Shown piece by piece: positions 9,407 to 10,915 of a DNA stretch of 64,000 bases. The notes under the pieces were generated by a model that was not told where the DNA came from, did no database searches, and saw nothing but the letters and a program-made list of their open reading frames with translations. Source of the stretch: Chitinispirillum alkaliphilum. GTDB taxonomy: Bacteria; Fibrobacterota; Chitinivibrionia; Chitinivibrionales; Chitinispirillaceae. Every line of letters starts with the position of its first letter. Position 1 is the stretch's first letter. The position numbers were made by a program, and so were the translations under genes. The stretch covers positions 1 through 64,000 of the forward strand of contig LDWW01000010.1 of NCBI GenBank assembly GCA_001045525.1. Reading direction: 5' to 3'.

Positions 9407-10915
9407 ATGTCAACAAAAAGTCCTACCAATACAGAGTGCATAGCAGAGCTTCTCAAGCCTCTTAACAATGAGCAGCTTGAGGCTGTATCGGTTATGCACA
9501 AAAAACCGGTTCTTGTCCTGGCTGGAGCGGGGTGTGGCAAAACTGCTGTGCTCACAAGGCGAATAGCGTTTCTATGTGCATCCGGGGTTCAGCCTTCACG
9601 GCTTCTCGCACTCACTTTCTCCAGAAAAGCCGCTCAGGAAATGGCTTCCCGCATTCAGACAATGCAAATCGGTTTGCAGGGATGTTCTGCTCCGTTGGTT
9701 ACCACTTTCCACAGTTTCGCACTGAAAGTGTTGAGCTCAGAGATTCAGGGTAAATCAAATTTCGCCAGAATCGGGTATGCCGCAACCCCTTTTGTCCTCA
9801 GTGACAGAGAGAGCCTTGAGATAATTTCCGGAATGGTCGATATCCGTCAGAGAAAATTTCTGGGGCTGTCACTGACAGAACTGGACAATCATCTGAAAAG
9901 GATGGAGCTTTTCCCATCAAAGGTAAGAAATGGGTTTGACTCCAAGCAATGGGAGTTGTTGCTGAAAATCAGAACAGATTTCTCCGAACAAAAAAAACGG
10001 ATGGGTCTATGGGGGTTTTCCGATCTGATTGCAGGTACAATCGAGCTTTTTGAGAGGGAACCCGTACTGGCTTCGTATTATTCCACTCTTTTTGACTCTG
10101 TATTGGTGGATGAATTTCAGGACACCAACCCCATACAGATAAAGTTATTGGAGCATCTTCTCTCCGGTGAGGCATCTCTCTTTGCCGTGGGCGATGACGA
10201 TCAGGCCATTTATGGGTTTCAGGGTGCGGATATCAGCTCGATCAGGGAATTTAGAAGTCGATTTCCCTCTGCCTGCATTATAAAGCTTCAAACAAACTAT
10301 AGAAGTGTCACTTCAATTCTCGATTATGCGAATAAACTCTGGGTCGGTAAGCCCGATGAATATAAAAAAATACTTAAATGCGGAAAACCGTCTCACCTCA
10401 AGGGGTGTAAAAAACCAATATGGAAAACGTACAATAATGAAAAGAGTGCAGCGTTTTGGATCCTGCACAAGGCTGAGGAACTGCAAAAAAAAGAGCGTAT
10501 TAAAATCTCCTCTATGGCCATTCTGTTCAGGCTGAATAAAACACTGAATTATATGAAGGAAATTATGACAGAGATCGCGCCCGCCTCAGATTCACTCCCC
10601 ACTTTCATTACCGTTCATGCCAGCAAGGGGCTTGAGTACCCGGTTGTGTTTTTGTGTGATCTGGAGGAGGGGGTTTTCCCGCATTACAGGTCTAAACGAG
10701 CTCCTCAGTTTTGTTCCTGGGGGGATATGTGCAAGGCGATGTTTAAAGGGAAAATGGATCTGGTGCCGGAAGAGACTCTGGAGGAGGAGTTAAGGCTTTT
10801 TTATGTCGGGTTAACCAGAGCTGAAAGATTTCTCTTTCTTTTAACGTGCAGAAACAGAAAGTTTTCCGGGAGAAGGGAAAGGTTAGTTGCATCCCGTTTC
10901 AGAAAACTGGTTTAA
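9407..10915 (+). CDS. short UvrD/Rep-type SF1A DNA helicase apparently lacking subdomain 2B
   Basis: 502 aa against about 650-750 in UvrD, Rep and PcrA. Present in order: Q motif LNNEQLEAV, Walker A GAGCGKT (40-46), motif Ia TFSRKAAQEM, motif Ib TTFHSFA, Walker B VDEFQDT (234-240), motif III GDDDQAIYGFQGA, motif IV TNYRS, an ILFR segment (Arg375), motif V VHASKGLEYPVVFL (His404) and motif VI YVGLTRAE. Only about 28 residues lie between the ILFR segment and motif V, where UvrD has roughly 180 residues forming 2B. The motor core therefore seems complete while the regulatory 2B domain is absent. It is most likely an active translocase or helicase in repair. No frameshift is seen. Confidence 0.88.
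   Translation: MSTKSPTNTECIAELLKPLNNEQLEAVSVMHKKPVLVLAGAGCGKTAVLTRRIAFLCASGVQPSRLLALTFSRKAAQEMASRIQTMQIGLQGCSAPLVTTFHSFALKVLSSEIQGKSNFARIGYAATPFVLSDRESLEIISGMVDIRQRKFLGLSLTELDNHLKRMELFPSKVRNGFDSKQWELLLKIRTDFSEQKKRMGLWGFSDLIAGTIELFEREPVLASYYSTLFDSVLVDEFQDTNPIQIKLLEHLLSGEASLFAVGDDDQAIYGFQGADISSIREFRSRFPSACIIKLQTNYRSVTSILDYANKLWVGKPDEYKKILKCGKPSHLKGCKKPIWKTYNNEKSAAFWILHKAEELQKKERIKISSMAILFRLNKTLNYMKEIMTEIAPASDSLPTFITVHASKGLEYPVVFLCDLEEGVFPHYRSKRAPQFCSWGDMCKAMFKGKMDLVPEETLEEELRLFYVGLTRAERFLFLLTCRNRKFSGRRERLVASRFRKLV

Follow-up and report, generated by a model that had tools for sequence, protein, structure and literature searches.

A UvrD-like helicase of Chitinispirillum alkaliphilum without subdomain 2B belongs to a short form widespread in Fibrobacterota

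Most of the argument about what subdomain 2B does in UvrD-type helicases, namely autoinhibition, a dimer interface and coupling to protein displacement, rests on structures and on engineered deletions. According to a 2026 review, deletion of 2B turns the Rep monomer into an active helicase and activation of UvrD-type monomers acts via 2B; 2B-2B dimerisation is put forward there as a general route to activation (PMC13238157). Rep that lacks 2B still unwinds, but it is described as defective in protein displacement and as an accessory replicative helicase (PMC6158625).

A natural enzyme of this architecture, the 2B-less PcrAs of Mycoplasma pneumoniae, was published in 2013 and showed ATP-driven DNA unwinding. 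In that paper, the relative rates of two PcrAs variants were 49 and 100 on one substrate, compared to 46 for the 2B-bearing paralogue, and 19 and 35 on another, compared to 26 (PMC3720892). By these values, PcrAs was not uniformly faster than the paralogue despite its lack of 2B. An EMSA gave no stable PcrAs-DNA complex (PMC3720892). This paper was the only one on natural 2B-less enzymes that our literature search returned. A sequence-only reading of the gene studied here had noted that 2B is missing. The gene is not the sole natural case, as E. coli helicase IV has an equally short gap (see below) and the Mycoplasma PcrA is likewise without 2B (PMC3720892).

The gene lies in a window of 64,000 nucleotides from C. 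alkaliphilum (contig LDWW01000010.1, positions 1 to 64,000), and all coordinates below refer to this window. The motifs were placed by alignment; the structural model was used in addition for the junction and for the V-VI insert. The features were as follows.

9407..10915, + strand: 2B-less SF1A (UvrD-like) helicase gene, ATG start, 502 aa
9521..9544, + strand: motif I (Walker A) AGAGCGKT, residues 39-46; G44, K45 and T46 invariant in 23 aligned proteins (window protein included)
9719..10015, + strand: 1B region, residues 105-203, of ordinary length
10100..10132, + strand: motif II VLVDEFQDTNP, residues 232-242
10184..10234, + strand: motif III AVGDDDQAIYGFQGADI, residues 260-276
10283..10309, + strand: motif IV KLQTNYRSV, residues 293-301
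10517..10537, + strand: motif IVa AILFRLN, residues 371-377
10538..10609, + strand: junction of 24 residues (378-401), where UvrD, Rep and PcrA have about 200 (2B)
10610..10660, + strand: motif V TVHASKGLEYPVVFLCD, residues 402-418
10685..10780, + strand: insert between motifs V and VI, about residues 427-458
10781..10825, + strand: motif VI EEELRLFYVGLTRAE, residues 459-473

The earlier claim that all SF1A motifs are present was confirmed. Motifs I, Ia and II-VI, the membership feature of UvrD, PcrA and Rep, were all found in the window protein, and the motor motifs were intact in both the alignment and the Pfam search. The N-terminal UvrD-helicase domain was full (residues 19-287 on profile positions 1-271 of 271). 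The best stretch for UvrD_C covered only the tail of that profile (residues 400-482, positions 289-349 of 350). The window protein was aligned with 22 order-level relatives of 40-56% whole-protein identity, partial and near-duplicate loci being excluded. Among the motor residues, GKT (44-46), DEFQD (235-239), Q266, R299 and R471 were invariant in these 23 proteins. Across 27 proteins from the window's order, the 1B region was 98-100 residues long; 23 full-length proteins had 89-102 residues there, and 21 proteins fused to a second domain (see below) had 79-81.

Several features were typical of the short proteins. A267 was present in 98% of 54 short proteins and K315 in all 54, compared to mostly S and N in the long proteins (19/23 each). 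Position 271 in motif III was F in 54/54 short proteins, and W (15/23) or F (8/23) in the long ones. Between motifs V and VI, the 27 order-level proteins carry an insert of 28-36 aa, compared to 9-16 aa in the fused proteins, those of other families and the full-length ones. It was conserved in part, and it contained the only residues with confidence below 50 in the model described below (431-438 and 440-456). The insert is possibly an order-specific binding element or a substitute regulatory element. Together with A267, K315 and F271, it could bear the lineage's own biology. The chain stops 29 residues past motif VI and thus lacks a C-terminal tail domain. The distance from the start of motif VI to the chain end was 44 residues, compared to 155 in the longest of the three full-length UvrD-like paralogues of the same genome (736, 677 and 675 aa). 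The tail of that paralogue is presumably an RNA polymerase-binding Tudor domain.

The absence of 2B, as read from the sequence, was borne out by an alignment to PcrA, by gap counts and by a structural model. In the alignment to PcrA (1pjr), residues 14-388 matched 7-372 and residues 388-498 matched 550-637, leaving 177 PcrA residues (373-549) unmatched in the window protein. A single alignment then served to count the residues between the last position of motif IVa (377) and motif V (402). This gap came to 24 residues in the window protein and to 21-24 across its order (27 proteins, the window's own among them); six short proteins of other families had 20-25 and the 21 fused proteins 26-38. 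The full-length counts were 186-202 in the three UvrD-like paralogues of the window genome and 171-263 in 20 proteins of other phyla. Identical counting gave 203 in E. coli Rep and 200 in E. coli UvrD. The earlier estimate of about 28 residues versus about 180 was therefore a fair one. The GIG duplex-contact motif of 2B was not seen by eye in the 502 residues; GIG is not universal, and E. coli Rep has EIG at the same place. With intact motifs and a conserved short junction, chance plays no part here.

The AlphaFold model of the window protein had a pLDDT of 84.1 and a pTM of 0.85. The modelled junction passes from a strand (371-374) to a helix (377-390) and, by a turn, into the strand of motif V (399-402), and a 2B fold would not fit there. 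D. radiodurans UvrD was a good structural match (Z 42.2, 452/502 residues). The comparison with Rep and PcrA that had been proposed from the sequence returned the same fold (Z 38.2 over 443 residues for E. coli Rep, Z 37.9 over 452 for PcrA 1pjr). Superposition on UvrD, Rep and PcrA covered 441-453 of 502 residues, and no element took the place of 2B in the model. The model input consisted of 33 full-length homologues and no other short protein, so the model leans to the UvrD fold. GajB was absent among the 50 structural matches listed, an absence that carries no weight.

A search for similarly short homologues showed that the form is conserved. At least 132 of the 167 genomes of the phylum Fibrobacterota carried it, including 20 of 24 in the window's family, 9 of 16 in the rest of its order (which we take to be Chitinispirillales), at least 93 of 111 in family f8 (presumably Fibrobacter/Fibrobacteraceae) and at least 10 of 16 in the remaining families. 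Twenty-four genomes lay outside the matches listed (18 of f8, G041, G042 and G160-G163), and the short-form loci in G026 and G165 were cut by contig ends. The phylum is taken to be Fibrobacterota from family TIGR02145 (Fib_succ_major), which had 112, 99 and 82 matches in three genomes of genus g24 and appeared in one of 14 control genomes; elsewhere its signal was weak (9 matches in the window's genome, 1 in G166 and 0 in G157). The set of the 41 nearest genomes contained 27 order-level relatives that matched nearly end to end at 41-58% identity. No unbroken short match was found in 11 genomes of the window's order (four of the window's family, seven of the rest), which indicates that the gene is dispensable. 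All five genomes of family f7 lacked the short form, as did G007, a 98% complete genome of the window's family.

This distribution bears on whether the short junction is a recent deletion or an assembly artefact of the window genome. That genome is a draft of 160 contigs, and nothing else was found in favour of such an origin. Against it, the same kind of junction occurred in 27 order-level, six other and 21 fused proteins from separate genomes. We consider this explanation hardly conceivable, and a recent deletion was ruled out by the conserved junction. A full-length family with a shortened member in this one genome is thus not what was found, as the short proteins also formed a separate group in trees.

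In a quick tree, 41 short rows fell on one side of a branch with an SH-aLRT value of 98. A careful tree was built on a subset of these rows plus eight full-length proteins of the phylum. It separated 21 short from 24 long rows at 100/99, the long side including the full-length UvrD-like proteins of the phylum. A third tree contained helicase IV-like proteins and the protein of genome G170, without RecB/AddA-like ones, and omitted eight rows (own_L003, L178, L179, L101, L028, L029, L138 and L158). The short group received 99/94, the long group 83/95 and the helicase IV set 73/55. The last tree, with seven helicase IV-like proteins and an outgroup of five RecB/AddA-like proteins added and six more rows dropped (L220, L020, L099, L083, L185 and L139), gave 91/86 for short, 99/95 for long, 100/99 for helicase IV-like and 100/100 for RecB/AddA-like proteins. 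Because the short rows formed one group in all four trees, the short form is, judged from sequence, a separate old lineage inherited within the phylum and not a truncated PcrA. Short proteins fell outside the group of 2B-bearing proteins in these trees on row subsets. On the last tree with its RecB/AddA-like outgroup, the presence of 2B needs two changes. Two losses of 2B would be the simplest reading, the tree by itself giving no direction.

The window protein might also be of helicase IV (HelD) type, its short junction being the ordinary anatomy of that family. The gap between motifs IVa and V was 22 residues in E. coli helicase IV and 20-33 in five more helicase IV-like proteins, close to the 24 of the window protein, so the missing large insert is not peculiar to the latter. 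The best stretch of the helicase IV profile also crosses the junction (residues 147-481). However, that profile (PRK11054) scored 176.6 bits, below its NCBIfam cut-off of 543 and below the scores for PcrA (299.2), UvrD (266.3 and 255.4) and Rep (241.4 and 178.5). These scores likewise lay under their curated cut-offs (pcrA, 299.2 of 911.2; uvrD, 255.4 of 1144.45; rep, 241.4 of 951.45). The helicase IV-like and short proteins were distinct groups in the tree with the RecB/AddA-like outgroup, and the window protein lacks the long N-terminal part of helicase IV, where GKT lies near residue 220. We therefore judge this assignment very unlikely. Membership of helicase IV was ruled out on profile score and tree, the short junction nonetheless being common to both. 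The 2B of E. coli HelD is given as 79 aa in the PcrAs paper (PMC3720892); our count in E. coli helicase IV reveals no 79-aa insert between motifs IVa and V.

Genomes outside the phylum were searched around four centres (296, 249, 288 and 398 genomes; 1231 in total), and no unbroken match across the junction was found at E <= 1e-50. This search scored the best few candidates per genome (2 to 6 in the matches listed), and its threshold is too strict for forms as distant as some Fibrobacter-like ones (G104, best E 2.7e-33). The 249-genome set gave no match at all, which alone shows nothing. Each of the 60 matches from the 1231 genomes stopped at or before residue 390. A family-alignment scan of genome contigs returned no short form, judged by match length, among the best 80 of 583 relatives; near-whole queries matched over about 1.8-2.1 kb, and one match stopped at residue 377. 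The source genomes of 28 of these 80 were searched at E <= 1e-20, which gave one weak unbroken match (L220 in G170, a 691-aa frame, 28% identity). L220 is SF1A-like with a gap of 27 residues and a long branch in the tree. A second SF1A-like frame, L221 (781 aa), has a gap of 33 residues and groups with helicase IV. These short gaps indicate that other 2B-less kinds exist. Viral contigs gave five pattern matches and no relatives. Among the matches listed from phage and plasmid records (25 of 163 and 15 of 1187) there were no short forms, these matches being 1.8-2.2 kb and split in two pieces.

The sequence-only reading had offered a constitutively active motor or one regulated by a partner. In the window's order no partner was found beside the gene, whereas a PlsC-type acyltransferase was fused to the helicase or overlapped it in two other families. 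According to Pfam, the window neighbours were an Rrf2 regulator, malQ, purM, cysS, clpP and tuf, and none of them had a DNA-repair link. The order helicase-purM-cysS-clpP-tuf recurred in 4 of the 14 other stretches of the order (L121, L122, L131 and L133). A DNA ligase gene was directly upstream in L125 only (15 order stretches). A gene of about 590 aa preceded the helicase in 9 of the 15 (L123, L124, L126-L130, L132 and L133) and was absent beside the window gene; the two copies scanned had no Pfam or NCBIfam match.

In family f8 the helicase frame ran on into a PlsC-type acyltransferase at all 32 loci examined (21 plus 11, one of the latter cut by a contig end; 93 f8 genomes were counted). 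PF01553 was found in both fused loci scanned with Pfam. Homology to one of these two loci, with H(X4)D and PEGTR, which we take to be the motif names of PlsC-type acyltransferases, was present in 21/21 fused loci. In family f11 the PlsC homologue was a separate gene directly downstream of the helicase (6/6 loci). Assuming true starts, its overlap with the helicase stop was 4 bases long (ATGA or GTGA) at five loci and 7 bases long at the sixth. In L197, a short tandem repeat (unit of 24 bases, by eye) was seen where the helicase gene ends, immediately ahead of the overlapping plsC start. All 15 stretches of the window's order (window and 14 others) lacked a PlsC homologue next to the helicase, so the PlsC link does not extend to the window gene. 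The single stretches of f10 and f13 and two shorter ones of f12 also lacked it.

The linked PlsC domains grouped near unlinked ones of f10 and f13 with modest support (85/77) in a long-branched tree, and a single clade of fused and adjacent PlsC was not rejected (p-AU 0.247). Each of four f8 genomes had 5-6 PF01553 matches, so the fused copy is not the sole one. The helicase-PlsC gene at L148:3804-5597 comes after methyltransferase and flippase-like (LPG_synthase_TM) genes (Pfam), and the LPG_synthase_TM family was directly upstream in 8 of 20 f8 stretches, a lipid-like setting. Our literature search found no publication on a UvrD-PlsC fusion. The fusion to an apparently intact PlsC was unexpected and is a concrete partner lead; PlsC may be a partner in the Fibrobacter-like family and one other, and the link may reflect a common function or merely joint expression.

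Two explanations build on this link. The short form might be a remnant or a pure single-stranded DNA translocase, having lost unwinding and depending on a partner, with PlsC serving as a membrane tether in Fibrobacter-like bacteria. The fusion in 32/32 f8 loci and the overlapping downstream gene in 6/6 f11 loci speak for it, as does the lack of a stable PcrAs-DNA complex (PMC3720892). However, the two fused forms examined retain the motor motifs, PlsC was beside the gene in 0/15 stretches of the window's order and in none of the single f10 and f13 stretches, and 2B-less enzymes, engineered and natural, do unwind (PMC3720892, PMC6158625, PMC13238157). We regard this explanation as unlikely. It is quite unlikely that in Fibrobacter-like bacteria and another family the 2B-less motor forms the DNA-handling side of a device tying DNA processing to the membrane, in which PlsC, an enzyme of the type that makes phosphatidic acid, takes over the regulatory and tethering part of 2B.

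We rather favour a natural SF1A motor of an old lineage, built from 1A, 1B and 2A alone, with 3'-5' monomeric unwinding and weak protein stripping. The window protein would translocate 3'-5' on single-stranded DNA and, as a monomer, unwind short duplex tracts, since it lacks both the contact of 2B with the duplex, which keeps UvrD-type monomers inactive, and a 2B-2B dimer interface. The activation of Rep by removal of 2B, mentioned in the sequence-only reading, fits a motor freed from autoinhibition (PMC13238157). The protein would probably be poor at removing proteins from DNA, which points to a repair or processing motor and not an accessory replicative helicase. Its control would have to come from abundance, substrate choice or partners, and it presumably works beside the full-length UvrD-like paralogues. 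As far as we searched, the old, widespread 2B-less lineage and the link to a PlsC-type acyltransferase are new. Since this lineage without 2B runs through most families of the phylum, the role of 2B becomes testable with evolved enzymes at many sequence distances.

The window protein can be placed among known systems as follows. It shares with UvrD, PcrA and Rep the motor motifs, the length of 1B, the fold and its best NCBIfam scores. It differs from them by the absence of 2B (24 residues compared to 186-203) and of a C-terminal tail domain, by scores of at most about a third of their cut-offs, and by its separate tree group. Like DNA helicase IV (HelD, E. coli helD), it has an equally short junction (22 residues in HelD), but HelD has a long N-terminal part, 28% identity and its own tree group. 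Engineered Rep without 2B has the same architecture, produced artificially in a single enzyme. PcrAs (MPN340) of Mycoplasma pneumoniae is likewise a natural 2B-less SF1A enzyme next to a full-length PcrA, and the window protein shows the absence of 2B with every motor motif retained, on which that kind is founded. The likeness of the two is one of architecture; PcrAs was reported for a single species, whereas the lineage of the window protein is phylum-wide.
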